Source: Faecalibacter rhinopitheci (lineage in GTDB: Bacteria; Bacteroidota; Bacteroidia; Flavobacteriales; Weeksellaceae). From it: a DNA stretch of 64,000 bases. Location of the stretch: contig NZ_JADGIK010000001.1 of NCBI RefSeq assembly GCF_015234135.1, positions 124,001-188,000 on the forward strand, written 5' to 3'. This document shows positions 8,514 through 50,790 of this stretch, in pieces (positions within the stretch are counted from its first letter, which is position 1; every line of letters begins with the position of its first letter). The position numbers and the translations under genes were made by a program. The notes under the pieces are model-generated. The model saw only the letters and a program-made list of their open reading frames with translations. It made no database searches and was not told the DNA's origin.

Positions 8514-10118
8514 ATGAAAAAATTAGTTTTAGCATTATCCTTTGCCTTTTCAATTGGATTTGCACAAGCTCAAACTTCAGAAGTTCCAAAAGAAACTTGG
8601 TATCACTCAGATTTTGAACAAACTGGTGTATATGGAGTTAATACAGAAAAAGCTTTAGATTTTTTAAAGAAAAATAAAAGAAAATCTCAACCAATTGTTG
8701 TTGGAGTTTTAGATTCTGGTGTAGAACATTTCCATGAAGATTTAAAAGCTAACATGTGGATTAATACAAAGGAAATTCCAGGAAACGGAATCGATGATGA
8801 TAAAAATGGATATATTGATGATGTACATGGTTGGTCATTCTTAGGTACTGCAAAAGGAATTAATTATAATGACGATACTGTTGAGTTAACACGTATTTAT
8901 AAAAATTTAGCTGATAAATTTGAAACGTACGATCAACAAAAAAATCATGATGCTATCGTAAAAAATCCATCTGAGTATGCTGAATATTTAGAAATTAAAA
9001 AAGAATATTTAGGTGCTATTGGAAAAGCAAAATATACACAACAAATAGCTCAAGCTCGCTTAAATGCAATAGAACCAGGAATCAATAAAATGGTTTTAGA
9101 ATTTGGTGATACTAAGTTAACGAAAGATATTATTTCAAAATATCAACCAACAGATTCTCAAGTTATCGAAGCTTTATGGATTTTTGGTGAAATGAAAGAA
9201 GAGCAATGGGTTGGTAAAACAATGAAAGAAGTTTCTAACTCTTACTTAGGAATGGCTCGTCGACAAGCTAAAGGAGATGCACTTACCTCTCACTATAATC
9301 TAGATTTAGTAAACCGAAAAGATGTAGATAATCCAAATGATTTAAAGGAAAAATTCTACGGTAATTCAGATTCTAACGGACCTGAAGCTTCTCACGGTAC
9401 ACACGTGGCTGGTATTATTTCTGCAGTTCGTGGAAACAAAATTGGTAACGAAGGTACTTCTGGTGGTAACCACGTAAAAATTATGTCTGTTCGTACAGTT
9501 CCTAACGGAGATGAAAGAGATAAAGATGTAGCAAATGCAATCTACTACGCTGTAGATAATGGTGCTAAAATCTTAAACATGTCTTTCGGTAAAACATATT
9601 CTCCTAATAAAGAAATTGTTTGGAATGCATTTAAATATGCTGCGGACAAAGGTGTTTTAATCGTAAAAGCTGCTGGAAATAGCAATGAAGATATTGATAC
9701 GCACATCCACTATCCTACAAATTTTAAACCAGACGGTACAACAGTTTCAAATGCTGTATTAACAATTGGAGCGTCAACACGCAATGCAGACAAATTAAAA
9801 GCTGCTTTTTCTAATTATGGAATTAAATCTGTAGATGTTTTTGGTCCAGGAGCAGAAATATATGCTACTTATCCTGGTGTTGATCAATACCGTTTCTTAA
9901 ATGGTACATCTATGGCATCGCCTGCTGTAGCCGGAGTTGCTGCATTAGTTTGGTCTCATTACCCAAAATTATCAGCACAAGATATTCGTACAATTTTAAT
10001 GGAAACAGTAAATAAAAACGAACAATTAAAAGATATTTCAGTTGCGGGAGGAGTTGTTGATTCTTACAAAGCTGTGCAACGTGCAGAAGAAATTTACAAA
10101 CAACGTAAATTAAAATAG
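8514..10118 (+). CDS. Secreted subtilisin-like (S8) serine protease, copy 1
   Basis: This 534-aa S8-family endopeptidase has an N-terminal Sec signal peptide ending near AQAQ (residue 20). The catalytic triad is intact: Asp67 in VGVLDSGVE, His294 in SHGTHVAG and Ser466 in NGTSMASP, with oxyanion Asn389 in AAGN. The Asp and His are 227 residues apart, against about 30 in subtilisin, because of a charged, probably helical insertion (about 110-280). There is no propeptide-like I9 domain, and the protein ends without a type IX secretion CTD, so it is likely periplasmic or outer-membrane associated. It is a paralogue of the next gene and is followed by a strong terminator. Confidence 0.92.
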   Translation: MKKLVLALSFAFSIGFAQAQTSEVPKETWYHSDFEQTGVYGVNTEKALDFLKKNKRKSQPIVVGVLDSGVEHFHEDLKANMWINTKEIPGNGIDDDKNGYIDDVHGWSFLGTAKGINYNDDTVELTRIYKNLADKFETYDQQKNHDAIVKNPSEYAEYLEIKKEYLGAIGKAKYTQQIAQARLNAIEPGINKMVLEFGDTKLTKDIISKYQPTDSQVIEALWIFGEMKEEQWVGKTMKEVSNSYLGMARRQAKGDALTSHYNLDLVNRKDVDNPNDLKEKFYGNSDSNGPEASHGTHVAGIISAVRGNKIGNEGTSGGNHVKIMSVRTVPNGDERDKDVANAIYYAVDNGAKILNMSFGKTYSPNKEIVWNAFKYAADKGVLIVKAAGNSNEDIDTHIHYPTNFKPDGTTVSNAVLTIGASTRNADKLKAAFSNYGIKSVDVFGPGAEIYATYPGVDQYRFLNGTSMASPAVAGVAALVWSHYPKLSAQDIRTILMETVNKNEQLKDISVAGGVVDSYKAVQRAEEIYKQRKLK

Positions 10119-10251: not shown

Positions 10252-11859
10252 ATGAAAAAAATATTATACAGTTTAGCATTAACAGCTTTATTAACTTCTG
10301 TAACATACGCACAAACTCCTAGACAAGATATTGATTTAAAAACTTGGCAACATATGTCTCTAGAAGAATCTGGTGTTTATGGTGTGAATACTCAAAAAGC
10401 AATTGATTTCTTAAAACAGAAAAATAGAAAAGCAACGCCATTTATCGTTGGTGTATTAGATTCTGGTGTAGAGGTTACTCATGAAGATCTAAAAGATAAT
10501 GTGTGGATAAATCCTAAGGAAAAAAAAGATGGTAAAGACAATGATAATAATGGATATATAGATGATATTCATGGTTGGAATTTTATCGGAGGAAAAGATG
10601 GAAAAAATGTTGACCATGATACTTTAGAATTAACTCGATTATTTAAGAAATATAAATCGTTATTTGAAACTGATAAAAACGCAGAAACAAATAAATCAAA
10701 ATTCGCGAAAGAATACGCTGAATATCTTGAAATAAAGAATAAGTTTGAAACAGAATTAGCTGATGCCAAACAAAATTTAGGTCAATATCAGAATATTCAT
10801 AATGGTTTAAAAACTCCAATCGAAAATCTGATTAATCAAATTGGAGAACAAAAATTAACTGAAGAATTCATGTTATCATTTCAGCCCAAAGATGATATTA
10901 CAAAACAAGGGATGATGATCTTTGCTATGGTTCCTCCTGAGGCTTGGAAAGGTAAAACTATGAATGAATTCGGGACTGAAATCTTAGGAGAAATTGGTGA
11001 AGCTGTAAAACATTATCAAAACCAAGTAGATTATAATTTAAATCTTAACTATGATACACGTTCTATAGTTGGTGATGACTATTCTAATATTAAAGAAAAA
11101 CATTATGGTAATAGTGATGTTGATGGACCTGATTCTAATCACGGAACACATGTTTCTGGGATAATAGCTGCAAAACGTAATAACGGGATTGGTATGGACG
11201 GAATTGCGGGCGATGGAAATGTAAAAATCATGTCTGTACGTACAGTTCCTAATGGAGATGAAAGAGATAAAGATGTGGTTAATGCAATTCGATATGCTGT
11301 AGATAATGGTGCTAAAATTTTAAACATGTCTTTCGGAAAAGCTTATTCTCCTGATAAAGAAGAAGTTTGGAATGCATTTAAATATGCTGCTGATAAAGGT
11401 GTTTTATTAATAAAAGCAGCTGGAAATGATGATTTAAATATTGATACAGATTTACACTTTCCTACAGTATTTAATGATAAAGGAGACGCTGTTTCAAATA
11501 ATGTAATTACAGTAGGATCTTCTACTAGCGACAGTAATATTTTAAAATCTAGTTTCTCTAATTACGGTAAAAAATCTGTGGATGTTTTCGCTCCAGGATC
11601 TGAAATTTATTCAGCAATCCCAACTAGAGATGGAAAATATAAGTCCAATTCAGGTACTTCTATGGCTTCACCAGTAGTTGCTGGTGTAGCAGCATTAGTA
11701 TGGTCTCATTATCCTAAATTGACTGCAAAAGACATTAAACAGATTATTATGGAATCTGTAAATAAAAATGATCAATTAAAAGAGGTTTCTGTAACTGGTG
11801 GAGTTGTTGATGCTTATAAAGCAGTACAATTAGCTGAAAAAATAGCAACAAAGAAATAA
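10252..11859 (+). CDS. Secreted subtilisin-like (S8) serine protease, copy 2
   Basis: This 535-aa paralogue of the preceding protease has a signal peptide (cleavage near TYAQ, residue 21) and an intact triad: Asp70 in VGVLDSGVE, His297 in NHGTHVSG and Ser470 in SGTSMASP. It carries the same large insertion between Asp and His, but the insertion has diverged from copy 1, while residues around MSVRTVPNGDERDKDV are the same. It is separately transcribed, lying between terminators at 10139-10169 and 11911-11939. Substrate and processing are unknown. Confidence 0.92.
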   Translation: MKKILYSLALTALLTSVTYAQTPRQDIDLKTWQHMSLEESGVYGVNTQKAIDFLKQKNRKATPFIVGVLDSGVEVTHEDLKDNVWINPKEKKDGKDNDNNGYIDDIHGWNFIGGKDGKNVDHDTLELTRLFKKYKSLFETDKNAETNKSKFAKEYAEYLEIKNKFETELADAKQNLGQYQNIHNGLKTPIENLINQIGEQKLTEEFMLSFQPKDDITKQGMMIFAMVPPEAWKGKTMNEFGTEILGEIGEAVKHYQNQVDYNLNLNYDTRSIVGDDYSNIKEKHYGNSDVDGPDSNHGTHVSGIIAAKRNNGIGMDGIAGDGNVKIMSVRTVPNGDERDKDVVNAIRYAVDNGAKILNMSFGKAYSPDKEEVWNAFKYAADKGVLLIKAAGNDDLNIDTDLHFPTVFNDKGDAVSNNVITVGSSTSDSNILKSSFSNYGKKSVDVFAPGSEIYSAIPTRDGKYKSNSGTSMASPVVAGVAALVWSHYPKLTAKDIKQIIMESVNKNDQLKEVSVTGGVVDAYKAVQLAEKIATKK

Positions 11860-40012: not shown

Positions 40013-40678
40013 CTAAAATGTAAGTTTTTTTATTTTATCTTGATGAATTAAAAATTCTTCAATTAATGTAATATCTTTTATTTTGAAAACAATTTCATAA
40101 ACATAAGATATATTTTCTTCATCGACTTCAATCGATTTACATTCATAAGAAATAATTAATTTTTCTAACTTTTCTATAATTTCATTTCTTACACTAACCT
40201 GATTTTTAGGAATTGTGAATCGAATAATTTTATATGTTTTTTTAGTAATAAATATTTTTGAAATATAATTCCCAAAAAATATTACTAAAAAACTGCATAG
40301 TAAAAATGCAAATGCTATAATAAATTCACCAAAGCCTAAAGACATTCCTATTGCAGCTGCAATCCATATAATTCCTGCTGTTGTAAGCCCACTAACAGTA
40401 ACTCCATCTTTAAAGATTACTCCAGCACCAAGAAATCCTATACCGCTAACAACATACGAAGCGATTCTTGTTGCATCTTCAGAGTCACCTTCTCCCATCT
40501 TGTACGATAAGATGGTAAATAAAGTACTTCCTAGGCATATAATTGTAATAGTTTTGAAACCGGCAGCTTTATCTTTTACCTCTCTTTCTATACCTAATAA
40601 AACACCCGCAATTAGGGAGCAAGCCATTTTTATTATATCTATATTTTCCCAGTTGCTAATAAAACTTTCCCAATTCAT
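40013..40678 (-). CDS. MgtC/SapB family membrane protein
   Basis: A 221-aa inner-membrane protein with about five hydrophobic helices in residues 15-145 and a soluble ACT-like C-terminal domain (about 150-221). The MgtC signature ACSLIAGVLLGIEREVKDKAAGFKT is present, with SYVVSGIGFLGAGVIFKDG. Family members are linked to Mg2+ limitation or, in pathogens, to F-ATPase inhibition and macrophage survival. Nothing here shows which role applies. It is monocistronic. Confidence 0.92.
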   Translation of the reverse strand: MNWESFISNWENIDIIKMACSLIAGVLLGIEREVKDKAAGFKTITIICLGSTLFTILSYKMGEGDSEDATRIASYVVSGIGFLGAGVIFKDGVTVSGLTTAGIIWIAAAIGMSLGFGEFIIAFAFLLCSFLVIFFGNYISKIFITKKTYKIIRFTIPKNQVSVRNEIIEKLEKLIISYECKSIEVDEENISYVYEIVFKIKDITLIEEFLIHQDKIKKLTF

Positions 40679-42259: not shown

Positions 42260-43381
42260 ATGGAAAATACAACAAATACAGACACAGTTTTTAAAACATA
42301 TTTTGATCAAACATTGGAAAGATGTGGATGGAATGATGAAATGCAAAAAGGAATAATTTTTTTTCTTGGTGCAAGTATTATTTCGTTAAACACAGATCAA
42401 ATTTTAAGTAGATTTAAAGACGAAATAAGAATACAAGAAGAGCTTCATCATTTAATACGATTATATGCAAAACCAAATGAAGCTTATGACCCATTTAATG
42501 AGATTGAAACTACTCCTATTTCATCAGCTATACTTACTTACAATCATATTGTATTGCATCAGTTGATAGGTAAAGAAAATCAGATTGAAAAATTTGTAAA
42601 ACAAAATCCCGATGCAACAAGTATTGTATCTGATGCTAGTATTTTAGAAGATTGGACAAAAGAATTTGTAAACGCTAAATATACTCTTAGTGCTACACAT
42701 AAACTAAATAAAATGTTCTTTGAATACATTGGTCAATATCTAAAAGCATTACAACTAGATAATACACAATGTTATGTAGCAGGTATTAATTTCTACCAAA
42801 AATATCAAACTATAGATTTTGAAGGAACTAATTTTTTAAATCTAACGATTATAGATAGCTTATCTCCTATCTTTAAGACTTTAATGCATTATCCTATTCT
42901 ATATACATATCATCCTCAAGAACTGAACTCTAATCATTTATTTAGTTCAATTTTACAGTTTTTCTATATGAATGCAAATACGGATATAGCTAAATACATT
43001 CATAACTATCATCACAACTTATTTTATAAACCAAATACACGAAATCTAAGAAAAGAATGGAATTTTGAGAAGGAAAAACGAGGTATAATCCTTTCTCAAA
43101 TTGTACATAACGCGATAAACATACGTAAAACTGTAATTGGTAATTATAGATCTCATTTTCTACAATCTGATAATTATATCATGAATGAACTAAAGGATCA
43201 AGCTATCACACGTGATGAATTTAAAGCTGGGATTACACATTTAATTGAAAATTTCTATGAAATGAAGATTGAAGATGTAATTGAAAATTATACACATGCA
43301 GAATTTTTGCAAACATGTGCTATTTTATATTACGAAACAGCTGCGCATGCAATGTTAGTAAAGGAATTTAAATCAAACTAA
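42260..43381 (+). CDS. Uncharacterised helical protein
   Basis: A 373-aa cytoplasmic-looking protein I do not recognise. It has no signal peptide, membrane helix, Walker motif or metal motif. Composition is rich in Asn, His, Tyr and Ile, and helices appear throughout. The His-rich segments YIHNYHHNLFYKP and QEELHHLIRL are noticeable. It is preceded by about 200 bp of AT-rich non-coding sequence and followed by its own terminator (43394-43417). It could be a lineage-specific gene. Confidence 0.7.
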   Translation: MENTTNTDTVFKTYFDQTLERCGWNDEMQKGIIFFLGASIISLNTDQILSRFKDEIRIQEELHHLIRLYAKPNEAYDPFNEIETTPISSAILTYNHIVLHQLIGKENQIEKFVKQNPDATSIVSDASILEDWTKEFVNAKYTLSATHKLNKMFFEYIGQYLKALQLDNTQCYVAGINFYQKYQTIDFEGTNFLNLTIIDSLSPIFKTLMHYPILYTYHPQELNSNHLFSSILQFFYMNANTDIAKYIHNYHHNLFYKPNTRNLRKEWNFEKEKRGIILSQIVHNAINIRKTVIGNYRSHFLQSDNYIMNELKDQAITRDEFKAGITHLIENFYEMKIEDVIENYTHAEFLQTCAILYYETAAHAMLVKEFKSN

Positions 43382-43393
43382 TTATATATTACT

Positions 43394-43417
43394 AAGCCTT
43401 AGAAATAAGGCTTTTTT
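43394..43417 (+). terminator. Terminator after the 373-aa gene
   Basis: AAGCCTTA (43394-43401) pairs with TAAGGCTT (43406-43413) around GAAA, followed by a T run. Confidence 0.82.
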
Positions 43418-43428
43418 ATTCTTGCTAA

Positions 43429-43986
43429 ATGAACAAATTTTTTGGTATATTATTTCAAGTGTTATTTCTTAGTCCATTTGTCTTATTTATCCTTTTTTCA
43501 AGTTTAGATCATTTAACCTCGCTTCGTAAATTAGTATTTTTAGCTCTTATTACTATACTTCTTTTTTTTGGAATTGCACAACCAAAATTTTATAAGATAA
43601 GACCCGAAAAAGATGACTCTCTTACAATCATTATAGTAATGATTGGAGCAATATTAACCTACAGTTTACAAAATTATGTTAATCTAAATCCGATTTTATC
43701 AGCAGGATTAATAGGAACATTAGCTACACTTATTGATAAAAGAATTCAATTAAAATTATCCATTTCTTTGCCTATTTATTGTGGTGCTTTTGTAGGAATG
43801 ACTAACCCAAATATTCACTTTCCATTTTGGATAATTGGGCTCAATGGTTTAATTGCAGGAATACTATTTTACTACAGTAAAAGTTTTTATGGCGGAATTG
43901 GAGGTAAATTAGGAACTATAGCATTTGCATCTGTATTAGCAGGATTGTTTATATTTAAATGGTTTACAAATGATCTTTATTTTTAA
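43429..43986 (+). CDS. Uncharacterised membrane protein, first of a homologous pair
   Basis: A 185-aa protein with about six hydrophobic helices. Its C-terminal half has GAFVGMTNPNIHF and YGGIGGKLGTIAFASVL. The same two motifs recur in the next gene, which overlaps by 17 bp and must be co-translated. No family is recognised. The conserved Gly-rich turns inside helices suggest a channel or transporter fold, but this is inference. It starts 12 bp after a terminator hairpin, so its promoter is unclear. Confidence 0.75.
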   Translation: MNKFFGILFQVLFLSPFVLFILFSSLDHLTSLRKLVFLALITILLFFGIAQPKFYKIRPEKDDSLTIIIVMIGAILTYSLQNYVNLNPILSAGLIGTLATLIDKRIQLKLSISLPIYCGAFVGMTNPNIHFPFWIIGLNGLIAGILFYYSKSFYGGIGGKLGTIAFASVLAGLFIFKWFTNDLYF

Positions 43987-44362
43987 GGTACTAGTTTGTT
44001 ATGTAACTTATTGGTTAACATATCGACTAAATCATCAATACCAATTAGGCGCAGTTAAAGCATCAGCATATTTAGCTCTTATCATAGGAAGTATTTATCA
44101 ATTACTAATTGCCTTAAATTTTGAAATTGAAAAATTTAGAGATTATTTTTTAATTATGATGGGTGCAACATTCATGGGAATGATAGCAAATGTTCATCGA
44201 CATCAATCAATTGATTTTATTATATCATCTATCATATTTTGTACACTTTACCACAATAGTTCTGTATATTTTAATGGACTTGGAGGACTTCTAGGTACAA
44301 TAGCTTGCATTAGCATTTTATGCGTATTTGGAATAGAAAGAATCATTAAATTAATTAAATAA
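43970..44362 (+). CDS. Uncharacterised membrane protein, second of a homologous pair
   Basis: A 130-aa protein with about four hydrophobic helices. The motifs GATFMGMIANVHRHQ and FNGLGGLLGTIACISIL align with GAFVGMTNPNIHF and YGGIGGKLGTIAFASVL of the preceding gene, at about the same distance apart, so the two are homologous. The start overlaps the first gene by 17 bp. The pair probably forms a hetero-oligomer; the function is unknown. A bidirectional terminator follows. Confidence 0.75.
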   Translation: MIFIFKVLVCYVTYWLTYRLNHQYQLGAVKASAYLALIIGSIYQLLIALNFEIEKFRDYFLIMMGATFMGMIANVHRHQSIDFIISSIIFCTLYHNSSVYFNGLGGLLGTIACISILCVFGIERIIKLIK

Positions 44363-44404: not shown

Positions 44405-44438
44405 ATAAAAAAGCATCTCTGAATAGAGATGCTTTTTT
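44405..44438. terminator. Bidirectional terminator between membrane pair and efflux operon
   Basis: AAAAAAGCATCTCT (44407-44420) pairs with AGAGATGCTTTTTT (44425-44438) around GAAT. Confidence 0.92.
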
Positions 44439-44458: not shown

Positions 44459-45865
44459 TTATTTCCATCCTCCACCTACAGAACGGTATAATTCTACGAC
44501 AGAATTAAGTTTTGTAAGTCTTGCATTAATGGCATTTAATTCAGCATTTAATGCTGCTTCACGAGCAGTAATAACTTCTAAATAATTGGCCATACCATAT
44601 GCTAATAATTCTTCTGAATATTCAATAGATTGATTATACAATTCAGCTTCTTTGTCTTTCAAAGGAATTTTTTGATCGGCTGCTTCATATCGAGCTAATG
44701 CATCTGAGACTTCCTTACTTGCTGTAAGTATAGTTTGTTTATATGCTAACAAAGCCTTTTCTTCATTTGCTAAAGCAACTTCTTTTGCTGTTTTGATTTG
44801 ACGTTTTTGCAAAATTGGTTGAGCCAATCGAGCAACTACATTCGCAAATAATGATTGTGCATCAAATAATTTATCAATATCAATACCTTGTAATCCACCA
44901 GTAGCCGTTAAAGATAAAGATGGATAGAAATTAGCATTCGCAATATTCACATTCTCAAAAGCATTAACCAAAGCAAATTCAGCAGCTTTGACGTCCGGAC
45001 GATTTTCTAAAATCTGTGCAGGTAATCCAACACCTAAAGACGAATAGATTTGTTGATTTTCGATCGTTCCACGCTCAATTACTTGAGGAGTTTCACCTAA
45101 TAAAACGCTTAAAACATTTTCGTTAAGCTTAATATTAGCATCTACATCAACTAATAATGCTTTCGCATTAAATAATTGCGCTTCTGTTTGGTTAACGGCA
45201 ACTTGCGTTACATTTCCTGCTTCTTTTAATGCTTTAATTGTTTCTAAACTTTGCTCACGGAAACCAATTGTTTTCACAATCGCTTTCTTCTGTTCGTCTA
45301 AAGCAATTAATTGATAGTAAGTATTTGCAATGGTAGATACAATATTCGTTTGCACTGCTTTGTGCGCTTCTACCGTTTGTAAATAATTGGCAGTTGCTCC
45401 TCTATAATTACTCCTAATTTTTCCCCAAATATCTGCTTCCCAAGAAAAATTCCCTGTCACATCATATTGAGATAAAGATTGAGAACCTGTAATACGACCA
45501 AATTGCGTATTCGCTGAAGTCTTTGTGTAAGTATATCCAGGTCCAACCGATAAAGTTGGTAAATAACCTGCTTTACCTTGTTTCACATAAGCTTCTGTGA
45601 CAGCAATATTTTGTAAAGCTGTACGAATATCTAAGTTATTCTGTAAACCTTTTGTAATGTAAGCTTTTAACGTTGGGTCAGAGAAAAACTCTTGCCAAGA
45701 AACATCGGCGATCGTTTGATCTTGTGAAGCGACAATATCAGTTCTAAATTGGGCTTCTTTTTGTACGTCACCTGGACGTGTATAGTCTTTCGCTACAAAA
45801 CACGATTGAATAGAAAACAATCCAAAGGCAATTAACGAAACTTTTAAAATTCTAAACTTTTTCAT
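44459..45865 (-). CDS. RND efflux outer-membrane channel (TolC/NodT family)
   Basis: A 468-aa outer-membrane lipoprotein (lipobox IQSC, Cys22) of the NodT/OprM group, the exit duct of a tripartite pump. Two repeats of the outer-membrane-efflux domain are seen, with VSWQEFFSDPTLKAYI, ENRPDVKAAEFALVNAFENVNIANANFYPSLSLTA and a C-terminal VVELYRSVGGGWK. It is the last gene of the operon; its ATG overlaps the stop of the pump gene by one base (TAATG), so translation is coupled. Confidence 0.94.
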   Translation of the reverse strand: MKKFRILKVSLIAFGLFSIQSCFVAKDYTRPGDVQKEAQFRTDIVASQDQTIADVSWQEFFSDPTLKAYITKGLQNNLDIRTALQNIAVTEAYVKQGKAGYLPTLSVGPGYTYTKTSANTQFGRITGSQSLSQYDVTGNFSWEADIWGKIRSNYRGATANYLQTVEAHKAVQTNIVSTIANTYYQLIALDEQKKAIVKTIGFREQSLETIKALKEAGNVTQVAVNQTEAQLFNAKALLVDVDANIKLNENVLSVLLGETPQVIERGTIENQQIYSSLGVGLPAQILENRPDVKAAEFALVNAFENVNIANANFYPSLSLTATGGLQGIDIDKLFDAQSLFANVVARLAQPILQKRQIKTAKEVALANEEKALLAYKQTILTASKEVSDALARYEAADQKIPLKDKEAELYNQSIEYSEELLAYGMANYLEVITAREAALNAELNAINARLTKLNSVVELYRSVGGGWK

Positions 45866-48800
45866 TAGTGTGCTGATTTTGTTTCTTCTGCTTTAACAAA
45901 TTTAACTGGTTTGATTTTCTCTTGAATTGATTGGAAAATAACGAATAATACAGGAATTACAAAAACTCCTAATACTGTACCAATTAATAATCCAAATGCT
46001 GCACCTGTACCCACTGAACGGTTACCAACAGATGATACTCCTGAAGCAAATACTAATGGTAATAATCCAACGATAAAGGCTAATGATGTCATTAAAATTG
46101 GACGTAAACGCGCCTTCGCTCCATCAATTGCTGAAGCTATGATAGACATTCCCGCAACACGTCTTTGTAAAGCGAACTCTACAATAAGAATGGCATTTTT
46201 TGCCAATAAACCAACCAACATTACTAATGCGATTTGGAAGTAAATATTATTTTCTAATCCTGCTAACCATTGCGCTAAGTAAGCTCCCATAATACCGCAT
46301 GGTACTGAGAATAATACCGCAAATGGTAAGATATAAGATTCATACTGACCAGATAGGATAAAGTACACGAATAAGATACATAATGCGAAAATAATTACTG
46401 TTTGTGAACCGGACTTGATCTCTTCACGAGTTAAACCGGCAAAATCTACTCCATAATTTGCAGATAACGTTTGTTCAGAAACTTCATTAATAGCACTAAT
46501 AGCATCTCCAGTAGAAAAACCTGGATTTACACCACCAGTAACGTTAGCAGAAGTAAATAAGTTAAAACGGTTTACAGAGTTAGGTCCATAAACTCTATTT
46601 AATGTAATAAACTGAGAAATTGGAGACATTTGTCCATCGGCAGTTTTTACAAACATTTTGTTAAGAGATGATTCATTGATACGATCATTAGGATCAGCTT
46701 GTACATACACACGGTATTGCTTACCAAAACGTGTAAAATCCGCTGCATATAATCCACCAATATATCCTTGTAATGTTGAGAATATAGAACTTACTGATAC
46801 TCCTGATTGTTTTGCACGTTCAATATTTACATCAATTTCGTATTGAGGGAAACTTGTATTTAATGAAGTTTGTGCATACATTACCTCTGGACGTTGCATT
46901 AAAGCTCCTAAATATTCCTTTGCAACTTTATCAAAAGAGTTAATATCACCACCCGATTTATCTAATAATTTTAATTCAAAACCAGAAGACATACCAAATC
47001 CTGGGATAGACGGTGGTTGGAAGAAAATCATTTGAGCATCAGTGAATTGAGAAGCTAAACCAAATAATTTCCCTGTAATTGTTTCGATAGCAGTATCTGC
47101 AGATGTACGTTCCTCGAAAGATTTTAATTTTACTAAAATCATCCCGTAATTAGAACCAGCACCAGAAATAATCGAGTTACCAGAAATTACAGTAACACCG
47201 TCAATTCCTGGGATTTGTGAAGCTTGTGCTTCAAATTGTTTTTGAACTTGATATACACGGTCCATCGAAGCACCTGCTGGTAATTCAACATTCCCAATAA
47301 TAAAACCTTGATCCTCTGTTGGTACAAAACCTGAAGGCATCATTTTACTGATTCCCATAATACCACCAACACTCGCTAATAAAATAATAAATGTAACCCA
47401 TTTATGTTTCATTAAAAATTTAAATGAACGACCATATTTTTCAGTCATACGGTTGAACATTGTATTGAATCCGTCAAAGAATCGTTGGATATAATTACGT
47501 TTTTTCCCTTCGTGCGCTTCGTGTCCTTTTAAGAATAAAGCACATAATGCAGGAGATAACGTCAAGGCATTTACAGCAGAAATTAAAATCGCTACAATTA
47601 AGGTAATACCAAATTGTTTATAAAACACACCAGTAGGACCAGTGATAAATGTTACAGGGACAAATACCGCACACATTACTAAAGTAATAGAAACAATTGC
47701 ACCAGAAATTTCATCCATTGCATTTTTAGTTGCATCCATTGGAGATTCGTGTGTTGTTTCCATACGCGCATGTACTGCCTCTACCACAACAATCGCATCA
47801 TCCACAACAATACCAATTGCTAACACTAAAGCAAATAACGTTAGTAAGTTTAAAGTAAAACCTGCTAAATTCAAGAAAAAGAATGTTCCAATAATAGAAA
47901 CTGGTACTGCAATTAAAGGAACTAAAGTAGATCGCCAATCTTGTAAGAAAATATATACAACAATAAAAACTAAGATAAACGCTTCAATCATCGTATGAAC
48001 TACTTTAGAAATAGATGCATCTAAGAATTTATTCGTATCCATCATTACTGTATAAGAAATACCTTCTGGAAATGATTTTGATGCTTTTTCTAAAGTTTCG
48101 TATAATGCCTTATTAATTTCTTGTGCGTTAGATCCTGGAGTTTGGTAAACTGCAAAAGCCTGCGCTGGATTACCTCTCATTTCTGATCTTCCTGAATAAG
48201 ATTGTGCACCAAAAGTAACATCAGCAATGTCTTTCAATCTTAACACTTGTCCTCCAGGTAAAGATTTAATCACAATGTTTTCATATTGTGATTCAGTCTT
48301 ATAACGTCCTGAATAAGTAATTGTATACTGAAAAGATTGTCCTGAATTTTCACCTAATGCCCCTGCAGCAGCCTCTAAAGATTCTTGTGACAAAGCTGAT
48401 TGAACATCAGAAGGCACTAAACCATAACTTGCCATACGTTCCGGTTTTAACCATATACGCATTGCATATGTTTGAGCTCCAAATACAGTAGCATCCCCTA
48501 CACCATTTACACGTTTTAACTCAGGGATAATATTAATGTTTAAATAATTCTGTAAATATGTCCCATCATATTTTGGGTTTGAAGAACCAAAAGATACAAA
48601 CATTAATGCCGAAGTTTGTTGCTTTTGTGTAACAACTCCAGAACGAGTTACCTCAGAAGGTAATAAAGGTGTAGCACGAGCCACACGATTTTGCACATTT
48701 ACCTGTGCCACATCGCCATCTACACCAGGTTTAAATACAACATCAATAGAAGCAGAACCATTATTAGAAGCAGTAGATTGGATATAATCCATTCCCTCTA

Positions 48801-49014
48801 CACCATTAACTTGTTCTTCAATTGGAATAATTACGGATTCCATCACCGTCTTAGCATTTGCTCCTGGATAAGAAGCAGAAATTTTAACTGTAGACGGAGC
48901 GATATCCGGATATTGAGTAACGGGAAGTGTAACCAATCCCAAAATACCCAATACAAATATCATAATAGAAATAACCGTTGATAAAACGGGTCTTTCAATA
49001 AATGTTTTTAACAT
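45865..49014 (-). CDS. RND multidrug efflux pump, HAE1 (AcrB) family
   Basis: A 1049-aa inner-membrane proton-driven transporter with 12 predicted helices and two large periplasmic loops. The proton-relay aspartate pair is in AIGIVVDDAIVVVEAV (TM4), and the TM10 lysine region is in LVGLLAKNAILIVEFA. The length and MLKTFIERPVLSTVIS start are typical of HAE1 pumps for hydrophobic drugs, bile salts or dyes. The substrate range cannot be predicted. The adaptor gene lies 10 bp upstream and the channel gene overlaps downstream. Confidence 0.96.
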   Translation of the reverse strand: MLKTFIERPVLSTVISIMIFVLGILGLVTLPVTQYPDIAPSTVKISASYPGANAKTVMESVIIPIEEQVNGVEGMDYIQSTASNNGSASIDVVFKPGVDGDVAQVNVQNRVARATPLLPSEVTRSGVVTQKQQTSALMFVSFGSSNPKYDGTYLQNYLNINIIPELKRVNGVGDATVFGAQTYAMRIWLKPERMASYGLVPSDVQSALSQESLEAAAGALGENSGQSFQYTITYSGRYKTESQYENIVIKSLPGGQVLRLKDIADVTFGAQSYSGRSEMRGNPAQAFAVYQTPGSNAQEINKALYETLEKASKSFPEGISYTVMMDTNKFLDASISKVVHTMIEAFILVFIVVYIFLQDWRSTLVPLIAVPVSIIGTFFFLNLAGFTLNLLTLFALVLAIGIVVDDAIVVVEAVHARMETTHESPMDATKNAMDEISGAIVSITLVMCAVFVPVTFITGPTGVFYKQFGITLIVAILISAVNALTLSPALCALFLKGHEAHEGKKRNYIQRFFDGFNTMFNRMTEKYGRSFKFLMKHKWVTFIILLASVGGIMGISKMMPSGFVPTEDQGFIIGNVELPAGASMDRVYQVQKQFEAQASQIPGIDGVTVISGNSIISGAGSNYGMILVKLKSFEERTSADTAIETITGKLFGLASQFTDAQMIFFQPPSIPGFGMSSGFELKLLDKSGGDINSFDKVAKEYLGALMQRPEVMYAQTSLNTSFPQYEIDVNIERAKQSGVSVSSIFSTLQGYIGGLYAADFTRFGKQYRVYVQADPNDRINESSLNKMFVKTADGQMSPISQFITLNRVYGPNSVNRFNLFTSANVTGGVNPGFSTGDAISAINEVSEQTLSANYGVDFAGLTREEIKSGSQTVIIFALCILFVYFILSGQYESYILPFAVLFSVPCGIMGAYLAQWLAGLENNIYFQIALVMLVGLLAKNAILIVEFALQRRVAGMSIIASAIDGAKARLRPILMTSLAFIVGLLPLVFASGVSSVGNRSVGTGAAFGLLIGTVLGVFVIPVLFVIFQSIQEKIKPVKFVKAEETKSAH

Positions 49015-49024
49015 ATTTCTAAGT

Positions 49025-50266
49025 TTAGAAAATTGGTTTAGTAGATTCTACGATTTTTTCAAAATTAGCTGGTTTTGGTGCAATTAGAGTTTTATCACGT
49101 AATTTACCAACACCTTGAGCTACAACTTTATCACCTTTCTTAATACCTTCCGTGATAATAGCCATGTTTTCTGCTCGTGCTTTTACTGAAATTGGAGTTG
49201 CAATAGCAGAATCATTTCTCACTTTATAAACATAAACCATTCCTTGCTGTTCAAATGTGGCTGCTTCAGGAACTACAATTGCATCTACAAATGTTTTAGG
49301 AATTCTAATTTTTCCAGAGTTTCCGTTTGCTAATACTTTTGCAGCATTATTAAATTGAACACGGAATTGAATTGAACCTGTTACTGGATCGATTTGTCCA
49401 GTTACTGTCTGTATTTTTCCTTTTTCAGGATAAACTTCACCATTCGCCAAAATTAATTCTACTGGAGGTATATTATTTAACTTTTCTTTTAAAGTAGCTC
49501 CTTCAGATTTAGAAATAAAGTTTAAATACTCCTTTTCATTCATTGAAAAATAAGCATATACTCTATCTGTATTAGATACGATAGACATTGGCGTTGGATC
49601 GGTAGGACCAACTAATGTACCTTGTCTAAAGTTAATTGCTCCTAAAACTCCTGATATTGGACTACGAACAACAGAATAATCTACATTAGCCTGAGCACCA
49701 TTATAGTTAGCTTGTGCTTGAGATTGTCCTGCTTGCGCTTGTGCCTGAGCCGCTTGCGCCTGAGCTTGAGCTGCTTTAGCTTGCGCTAATTTAGCCTTTG
49801 CAGTTTCCAATTGTACATTAGAAATAATATTCTTTTCTACCAATGGGATTAATTTGTTAACCTCAACTTGGGCAGCTTGTACATTAGCCTTAGCCGCATT
49901 CACATTAGCTATAGCTGCGCTTACGTTTGCTGAAGCTGCACTTATTCCTGATTTTGCAGCATCTGCATTCTGAGATAATACGTTTGTTTCTAATTTAAAT
50001 AAAGGTTGACCTGCTTTCACAAACTGACCTTCATCAACATATACCTCAGTAATATAACCTTGTATTTTGGCTCTAATTTCATTGTTTACTACACCTTCTA
50101 TATTTGTAGTATACTCATCATAACTCGTTACAACTTTTGTTGGTACATCTACCACGTCATAAGACGCAGGACCTTGTGCTTGTGCAGCATCTTGACCGTC
50201 TTTTTTACCACAAGAACTTAGTGCAACTGTTAGTGCACCAACTAACATAACGTTAATATTCTTCAT
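49025..50266 (-). CDS. RND efflux periplasmic adaptor (AcrA type)
   Basis: A 413-aa lipoprotein (lipobox LSSC, Cys19) that links pump and channel. It has the lipoyl half-motifs (EVYVDEGQFVKAGQPLFKLE and DYSVVRSPISGVLG), a hairpin coiled coil between them, and beta-barrel and membrane-proximal domains. The hairpin contains an unusual Ala/Gln-rich run (AQAQAQAAQ type, about residues 165-190) encoded by an imperfect DNA repeat at 49690-49800. The regulator gene ends 1 bp upstream. Confidence 0.94.
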   Translation of the reverse strand: MKNINVMLVGALTVALSSCGKKDGQDAAQAQGPASYDVVDVPTKVVTSYDEYTTNIEGVVNNEIRAKIQGYITEVYVDEGQFVKAGQPLFKLETNVLSQNADAAKSGISAASANVSAAIANVNAAKANVQAAQVEVNKLIPLVEKNIISNVQLETAKAKLAQAKAAQAQAQAAQAQAQAGQSQAQANYNGAQANVDYSVVRSPISGVLGAINFRQGTLVGPTDPTPMSIVSNTDRVYAYFSMNEKEYLNFISKSEGATLKEKLNNIPPVELILANGEVYPEKGKIQTVTGQIDPVTGSIQFRVQFNNAAKVLANGNSGKIRIPKTFVDAIVVPEAATFEQQGMVYVYKVRNDSAIATPISVKARAENMAIITEGIKKGDKVVAQGVGKLRDKTLIAPKPANFEKIVESTKPIF

Positions 50267-50267
50267 A

Positions 50268-50762
50268 TTACTTATTTTCTAGTTGAATTGATTTTATCTT
50301 AATAATTGTTTCCTTTAATAATTTTTCAGAATTTTCTAAATATTCTGTATATACATCTAAGATGCCTTCATCTTTTAATAAATTCACTAATTGATTTTTT
50401 AATTTATAGTCGCTGATTCTCTTCGTAAAAGACAGATCTCGTGTAACTATATCATGTAAAAACTCTAATTTATCGGGTAAATAATTTAAGTTTAATCTAA
50501 AATATCTCTTTCGTGAATCTATTTTATGGTAATATTCTATCTGATTAAGCGATAAAAGCCAATTTATTGAAGTGGATAAAGAGCTCTTACTTACTTTGAA
50601 AATTTCTAAAAAATCTTCAAACGTAAAACCTTCATTATTAGAGTACAAAACCATATATGCCTGAATTTTTGAGGCTAATGGAGGGAAATTATATGTTTTC
50701 TCCAAATGAGTTGTGTAATTTTCAAACAACACAGAATTGCTTTGGCACAGGTTTTTACTCAT
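50268..50762 (-). CDS. GbsR/MarR-type regulator of the efflux operon
   Basis: A 164-aa winged-helix protein resembling the GbsR/MarR group: YNFPPLASKIQAYMVLYSN, FTFEDFLEIFKVSKSSLSTSINWLLSLNQIEYYHK (recognition helix region) and a helical C-terminal dimerisation arm. It is the first gene of the operon, 1 bp before the adaptor. It probably represses its own promoter through the inverted repeat at 50791-50814. I use the ATG at 50762 because it follows the −7 box (50778-50785); the alternative at 50789 would start inside the promoter region. Confidence 0.85.
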   Translation of the reverse strand: MSKNLCQSNSVLFENYTTHLEKTYNFPPLASKIQAYMVLYSNNEGFTFEDFLEIFKVSKSSLSTSINWLLSLNQIEYYHKIDSRKRYFRLNLNYLPDKLEFLHDIVTRDLSFTKRISDYKLKNQLVNLLKDEGILDVYTEYLENSEKLLKETIIKIKSIQLENK

Positions 50763-50777
50763 ATTTTTTAATTTTGG

Positions 50778-50785
50778 CAAATATA
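50778..50785 (-). promoter_or_regulatory. Efflux operon −7 box
   Basis: On the minus strand TATATTTG followed by CC is a perfect TAnnTTTG box, 15 bp before the regulator ATG. Its −33 region is covered by the inverted repeat. Confidence 0.55.
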
Positions 50786-50790
50786 ACAAT

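Follow-up and report, generated by a model that had tools for sequence, protein, structure and literature searches.

Genes A and B of the window (the whole stretch of 64,000 nucleotides analysed here, from a host genome of 2.89 Mb) encode two homologous membrane proteins that probably form an obligate antiparallel complex, namely an inverted-repeat transporter or channel split in two proteins. The sequence-only reading of this DNA had seen in them a duplicated half-unit making up a two-subunit membrane complex, and that proposal fits the homology of the proteins, their pairing in 80/80 loci and the existence of A-B fusions, as far as sequences can tell. More tentatively, the pair may represent a transporter or channel family whose fold is new to the PDB and which stands mostly at a pre-fusion stage, with two antiparallel five-helix subunits, glycine-rich gates and fused relatives.

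Locus, homology and conserved residues

The features of the locus are as follows.

Gene A, 43429..43986, + strand: 185 aa; two N-terminal membrane helices, then a five-helix core, predicted N-in/C-out
Gene B, 43970..44362, + strand: 130 aa; five-helix core homologous to the core of A, predicted N-out/C-in
A/B overlap, 43970..43986, + strand: 17 bp, different frames
A motif 1, 43777..43806, + strand: Y-C-G-A-F-V-G-M-T-N, residues 117-126
A motif 2, 43891..43926, + strand: G-G-I-G-G-K-L-G-T-I-A-F, residues 155-166
B motif 1, 44162..44188, + strand: G-A-T-F-M-G-M-I-A, residues 65-73
B motif 2, 44276..44314, + strand: G-L-G-G-L-L-G-T-I-A-C-I-S, residues 103-115
Intrinsic-terminator-like hairpin, 43394..43413, + strand: between the 373-aa gene and A
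373-aa gene, 42260-43381: no family match of note

AlphaFold2 models of the Empedobacter brevis homologue gave the helix limits of A, and the bias in lysine and arginine (K+R) its orientation. The overlap is as first read from the sequence, and may couple the translation of the two genes. Upstream of A, the hairpin and the T run that follows it end at 43418, 10 bp 5' of the start codon; a terminator scan found 1 such element against a mean of 0.4 in shuffled sequences. Its position between the 373-aa gene and A suggests that the pair is more than a continuation of the upstream gene.

The 373-aa gene had also been raised as a possible companion of the pair, an idea that its distribution does not support. 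It is a genus-wide gene (14/14 genomes of the genus, 0/26 others examined) that adjoins the pair in just the window genome, G001, G004 and G006; in G005 the two are about 1.15 kb apart with another gene between them. On the opposite strand, at 40013-40678, there is an MgtC family gene (PF02308).

That A and B are homologous, as proposed from their sequences, is supported beyond chance by BLASTP, profile search and hhalign alike. Compared directly, the two window proteins aligned by BLASTP over 26 residues with an E of 6e-5. A profile of 15 A proteins matched 15/15 B proteins, with E values from 7.4e-18 to 2.7e-9 in a database made of those 15 only, and hhalign, the profile-profile alignment that had been suggested as a check, gave a probability of 98.5% (E 1.8e-15, 121 columns) for 85 A against 85 B proteins. 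The match spans the core of B and the last five helices of A. Using a B profile on 395 Bacteroidota genomes, we recovered the B gene and the A gene, and nothing more at E <= 0.001; the A gene was matched at 3.8e-8 in the window genome, 2.6e-12 in G226 and 4.4e-11 in G218.

Two shared motifs had been noticed in the pair, and both are indeed present in both window proteins (GAFVGMTNPNIH / GATFMGMIANVHRH and GGIGGKLGTIAFAS / GLGGLLGTIACIS), but the N-x-H part of the first is not family-wide: the N position is occupied by S in 64/85 and by N in 18/85 of the A proteins, and by S in 77/85 of the B proteins. What is invariant or nearly so, and common to the 85 A and 85 B proteins, is F-x-G-M and G-x-G-G-x-L-G-x-x-A. 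In motif 1, residues Y117, C118, G119, F121, G123 and M124 of A, and G65, F68, G70 and M71 of B, are each found in 85/85 proteins. In motif 2, the same is true of G156, G158, G159, G162 and A165 of A (L161, 83/85) and of G105, G106 and G109 of B (G103, 84/85; A112, 83/85; L108, 82/85).

Among the charged residues of the core, two lysines of A alone are nearly invariant: K151 (K in 83, R in 1 and Q in 1 of the 85 A proteins) and K160 (K in 84, R in 1). Both are predicted to lie at the cytoplasmic end. The A and B alignments hold no conserved acidic residue inside the core helices; an acid immediately preceding the first core helix is retained in about nine of ten A proteins. In most A proteins beyond the window's clade, the loop preceding the core has an L-H-H...Y-E stretch, the histidine pair of which is absent in the window's clade.

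Pairing, distribution and natural fusions

In a set of 60 related genomes, 16 matched A. Fifteen of these were taken as real, namely 14/14 genomes of the window's genus plus G031, and each had B directly after A; a 553-aa Asp-Al_Ex-like protein of G044 was judged a false match and was dropped. A scan of 84,980 species genomes matched 292 stretches, of which 274 encode a relative and 80 were kept. All 80 are Bacteroidota by title and fall under 26 genus or group labels, including Empedobacter, Sphingobacterium, Pedobacter, Olivibacter, Chitinophaga, Mucilaginibacter, Winogradskyella, Olleya, Nonlabens, Muricauda, Cyclobacterium, Flavobacterium, Saprospiraceae and others. In 80/80 of the kept loci, B comes directly after A, on the same strand. 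The distance between the two is -16 to +4 bp in 76/80; the remaining four overlap further, which is probably due to start-codon calling.

Beyond the window's genus the pair is rare, as judged by draws of 395 genomes from the phylum and 395 from the class. True pairs were found in the window genome, G226 and G218 in the phylum draw, where B occurred only in A-carrying genomes (3/395). The class draw yielded the pair in the window genome and G218, fusions in four genomes, and in G755 an A gene at an apparent contig end, where a following B would be out of view. Matches in G093 and G074 (phylum draw) and in G093 and G497 (class draw) were judged false, as other membrane proteins of 435, 469 and 403 aa, and were dropped. 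No lone A or B was seen among the genomes searched, so that a dual-topology ancestor is unrepresented in them.

We also looked at the surroundings of the pair. The 80 loci have no third gene in common, the next most widespread gene cluster covering 5/26 labels, and no adjacent gene is shared beyond single genera or close groups. An Rfam search of 23 of the 80 loci returned one RNase P and three tRNAs only, with no riboswitch at the pair, and the window gave no Rfam match. In Sphingobacterium, a LacI-type regulator lies just 5' of the pair in 11/15 loci (L047, L051, L052, L061, L062, L063, L071, L075, L078, L080 and L093), at a distance of 9-28 bp, or 198 bp in L051. In L047 and L071 this regulator is divergent from genes for an FGGY kinase, a xylose-isomerase-like protein and an SSF symporter (by Pfam for L047); the SSF symporter gene of L069 and L103 is itself divergent from the pair. 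Since this LacI/xylose context is absent in other genera, we take it as a lead on the substrate only.

Five natural A-B fusions were found, four in Bacteroidota (one genus) and one on a haloarchaeal plasmid. The latter was the only record returned when a plasmid collection was searched with an A protein:

Natrinema zhouii plasmid fusion, NZ_CP084882.1 113685-114662 (L113:3677-4654): 325-aa hypothetical protein

It has two leading helices like those of A, and then two units. Its first half scored 63.0 bits with A vs 43.7 with B, and its second half 51.4 bits with A vs 50.9 with B. The Bacteroidota fusions (G499, G633, G677 and G696), recovered in the class-wide search, are single genes of 324-331 aa in the order A-B, flanked by NAD-synthetase-like and dehydroquinase-like genes (Pfam on one locus). 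Bit scores of their first halves were 35-61 against the A profile and 13-34 against the B profile; those of their second halves were 82-90 against B and 30-46 against A. When a profile of 13 joined A-B pairs was compared with the five fusions, hhalign gave 99.9% over 277 columns. In a tree built from the fusion halves and 30 of the 85 pairs, the first halves of the four Bacteroidota fusions group with the A rows and their second halves with the B rows; the archaeal halves join each other on long branches and are unplaceable.

Membrane orientation and a possible mechanism

The E. brevis pair was read through the stop codon of A as one chain with one joining residue, and two AlphaFold2 models were built, each from a deep alignment of one half only, since mixed MAFFT alignments (fused, A-only and B-only) misplaced rows onto the other half. 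In the models A has seven predicted helices; B has five and a further one in its tail. Their mean pLDDT is 78.2 and 76.6 and their pTM 0.62 and 0.72, with stretches below pLDDT 50 that include the motif-2 region of A (157-162 and 157-166).

With these helix limits, the K+R bias of the whole protein puts the N-terminus of the A core inside in 85/85 proteins and that of B outside in 85/85, it being understood that the 85 rows are related by descent and do not amount to 85 independent tests. When internal loops only were counted, the result held for A in 85/85 and for B in 83/85, or 78/85 with wider loop limits; the rest were at zero and none was opposite. With the narrower limits, the equivalent loops of the two cores had mean K+R counts of 0.12/1.62/0.12/1.99 in A and 2.32/0.12/1.49/0.54 in B; the homologous loops of the two proteins carry their charge in opposite phase. 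It should be noted that the window's own B has a weak bias, at +4 or +3 for the whole protein against a mean of 11.3 or 10.5, and +1 or 0 for the internal loops. Overall, the sequences give good support both to the pairing of A and B and to their predicted opposite membrane orientations. The five fusions have 9-16 K+R inside and 1-3 outside. Since the helix number per unit, five, is odd, a direct fusion without an added helix inverts the second unit.

We propose that the two genes go back to the ancient duplication of one five-helix unit. The core of A would have its N-terminus inside, with two extra helices in front, and B would be reversed, carrying in most relatives a basic cytoplasmic tail. 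Antiparallel assembly of at least A1B1 would then produce an inner-membrane protein of 10 + 2 helices with an inverted repeat, and in a few lineages the genes would have become fused. Motif 1 (F-x-G-M) would form the end of core helix 3 and motif 2 (G-x-GG-x-LG) the start of core helix 5. In the complex, motif 1 of either subunit would share a membrane face with motif 2 of its partner, each face having one motif per subunit, and F-x-G-M of one half may face G-x-GG-x-LG of the other to make up the gates. Such a layout would be expected for a two-fold symmetric permeation path or an alternating-access carrier.

As to what may be transported, the conserved K151 and K160 and the lack of an acid inside the core helices weakly favour a neutral or anionic small solute, which is a guess; no conserved neighbour, riboswitch or enzyme pointing to a substrate was found (80 loci; 23 by Rfam).

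An antiparallel membrane complex that does not transport, such as a membrane enzyme, a lipid scramblase or flippase, or a regulator, seems to us rather unlikely. It would be consistent with core helices that bear no conserved charge, with a patchy occurrence and no common neighbour, and with the L-H-H...Y-E stretch before the core in most A proteins beyond the window's clade. However, the window's clade lacks the histidine pair of that stretch, neither A nor B has a soluble domain, and inverted repeats are described as typical of transporters and channels (PMC3962082, PMC4067407).

Comparison with known families

As the sequence-only reading had stated, no named family was found: the proteins scanned fell into none of those in Pfam, NCBIfam, PHROGs or PADLOC-DB (PHROGs covered three window proteins only). 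Nor did A and B each match a different known family in these libraries, an outcome that would have spoken against the proposed duplication. The libraries returned weak scattered rows only, none above the curated cut-off where one exists, the strongest being Acyl_transf_3 at E 0.0011 in 2/14 B proteins and Na_H_antiport_3 at 0.0026 in 1/14 A proteins. The A and B profiles matched 0 PDB sequences at E <= 10, and the archaeal fusion gave 2 weak rows. We found no description of the pair in the literature, which was searched mainly on antiparallel families, an unnamed protein being one that cannot be searched by name. In the hhalign comparisons below, positive controls scored 98.5-99.9%.

Several known systems come close to the A-B pair. 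DUF606 (DMT_YdcZ, PF04657) is described as having five-helix units, adjacent gene pairs of opposite orientation and two-domain fusions (PMC3962082, PMC4067407). The same combination of five-helix opposite-orientation pairs and fusions occurs in the A-B family, helices and topology being predictions. The A-B family differs from DUF606 in its motifs, in the two extra helices of A and in that no singleton was seen. PF04657 had no match in the window proteins at E <= 10, in 7 relatives including the archaeal fusion at E <= 1, or in 14 A and 14 B proteins at E <= 0.1. Neither DMT_YdcZ nor ThrE_2 gave a protein above cut-off in the genomes sampled (ThrE_2 in 0/61 Bacteroidota genomes), so that both were compared with the A-B family by Pfam matching alone.

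YjjP/YjjB is a split ThrE, its two membrane genes being neighbours and corresponding to a single fused gene in other species; the A-B proteins have no Pfam match to ThrE or ThrE_2. EbrAB is likewise a gene pair, of the SMR family. In Rnf-Nqr complexes, cysteines of both subunits ligate a shared iron-sulphur centre. Within the A-B family, C118 of A is found in 85/85 proteins, and B has no conserved cysteine (C113, 38/85). Profiles of A, B, the pair and the fusions reached 0.1-1.6% in hhalign against 11 Rnf-Nqr members (11 of 15 candidate ORFs, the four others having been dropped as unrelated genes), the control of D against E being at 99.4%. RnfA/RnfE and NqrE/NqrD (PF02508; YdgL/YdgQ) resemble A and B as homologous small membrane proteins of opposite orientation that form an antiparallel heterodimer (PMC3962082), but the A-B pair lies outside any redox operon.

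UPF0016 (Gdt1, PF01169) also has paired genes for opposite halves, plus fusions, and its cyanobacterial pair is reported to complement yeast only when both genes are expressed (PMC4067407). It has three helices per unit, whereas the A-B core has five in both models; its motif E-x-G-D-[KR]-[ST] is absent from the conserved columns of the 85 A and 85 B proteins, and there was no PF01169 match. In SMR pairs (YdgE/YdgF) and Fluc/CrcB, too, a small solute is transported or conducted by a small antiparallel dimer (PMC3962082), but one with four helices per unit, so that a direct fusion cannot invert the repeat (PMC3962082); the A-B proteins have no Pfam match to these families. By the tests made here, on sequences, A-B is a separate family of the DUF606/UPF0016 kind.

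It is unlikely that A and B are divergent members of a known family of inverted-repeat transporters (SLC1/GltPh-like, urea transporter, Sbt_1 or Asp-Al_Ex). Sbt_1 (PF05982) is matched by one of 14 B proteins at E 0.005, and the window's A touches the Asp-Al_Ex-like protein of G044 at E 2.3e-4. Against this, hhalign gave the A, B, pair and fusion profiles 0.1-1.1% vs 16 members of Sbt_1, 0.1-0.9% vs 17/19 fetched segments of Asp-Al_Ex (PF06826) and 0.1-0.3% vs 9 members of the urea transporter family (PF03253), and neither profile had a PDB sequence at E <= 10.

Structures were compared as well, SLC1 by this means only. In VIA-align 2 the B half reached Z 5.8-6.8 with many SLC1 entries, and 6.0-6.5 with SLC1 entries in another comparison; its best score was Z 6.9, to TRIC. 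For model 2, a Z of 7.4 came from the two N-terminal helices alone. Every Z is < 8, a range which according to the tool is common for unrelated helical models, and these scores were treated as noise. Among PDB and viral proteins, Foldseek matched none at E <= 0.001. Its top row for model 1, in the test of the urea-transporter fold, was 3m6e (E 0.2, probability 0.54, TM-score 0.20), and the best row for the second model had an E of 0.22 and a TM-score of 0.18.

Finally, it is very improbable that A and B are diverged paralogues each forming its own homo-oligomer, with adjacency reflecting shared regulation only: each does hold a complete five-helix unit in the models, but the two are never apart in 80/80 loci, B is found only with A in 395 genomes, natural fusions join them, and their opposite charge bias differs from the near-zero bias described for dual-topology homodimers (PMC3962082).

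Gene fusion between two antiparallel proteins is the presumed origin of many inverted-repeat transporters. In 2014 DUF606 and UPF0016 were, to the knowledge of the authors, the only families present as singletons, pairs and fusions (PMC4067407). If the reading of A and B as a split transporter or channel is true, their family, with its pairs and fusions, would be a further case beside these two. Given that a strict two-gene form exists in many Bacteroidota and a one-gene form in a few relatives, split and fused states can be compared directly, in a conserved membrane protein pair that has no name in the family libraries searched here.

Elsewhere in the window, a perfect 8-bp inverted repeat with the loop GAAT and a T run was seen by eye at 44413-44438, between B and the convergent gene; it is absent from the terminator scan list and is probably a terminator. 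Convergent with the pair, 44459-50789 holds in a row an outer-membrane factor, an RND pump, a membrane fusion protein and a small regulator, by eye an ordinary efflux operon, whose outer-membrane efflux factor-like gene follows the pair at 44459. Two tandem paralogous genes for secreted subtilisin-like proteases, also recognised by eye, lie at 8514-10118 and 10252-11859.
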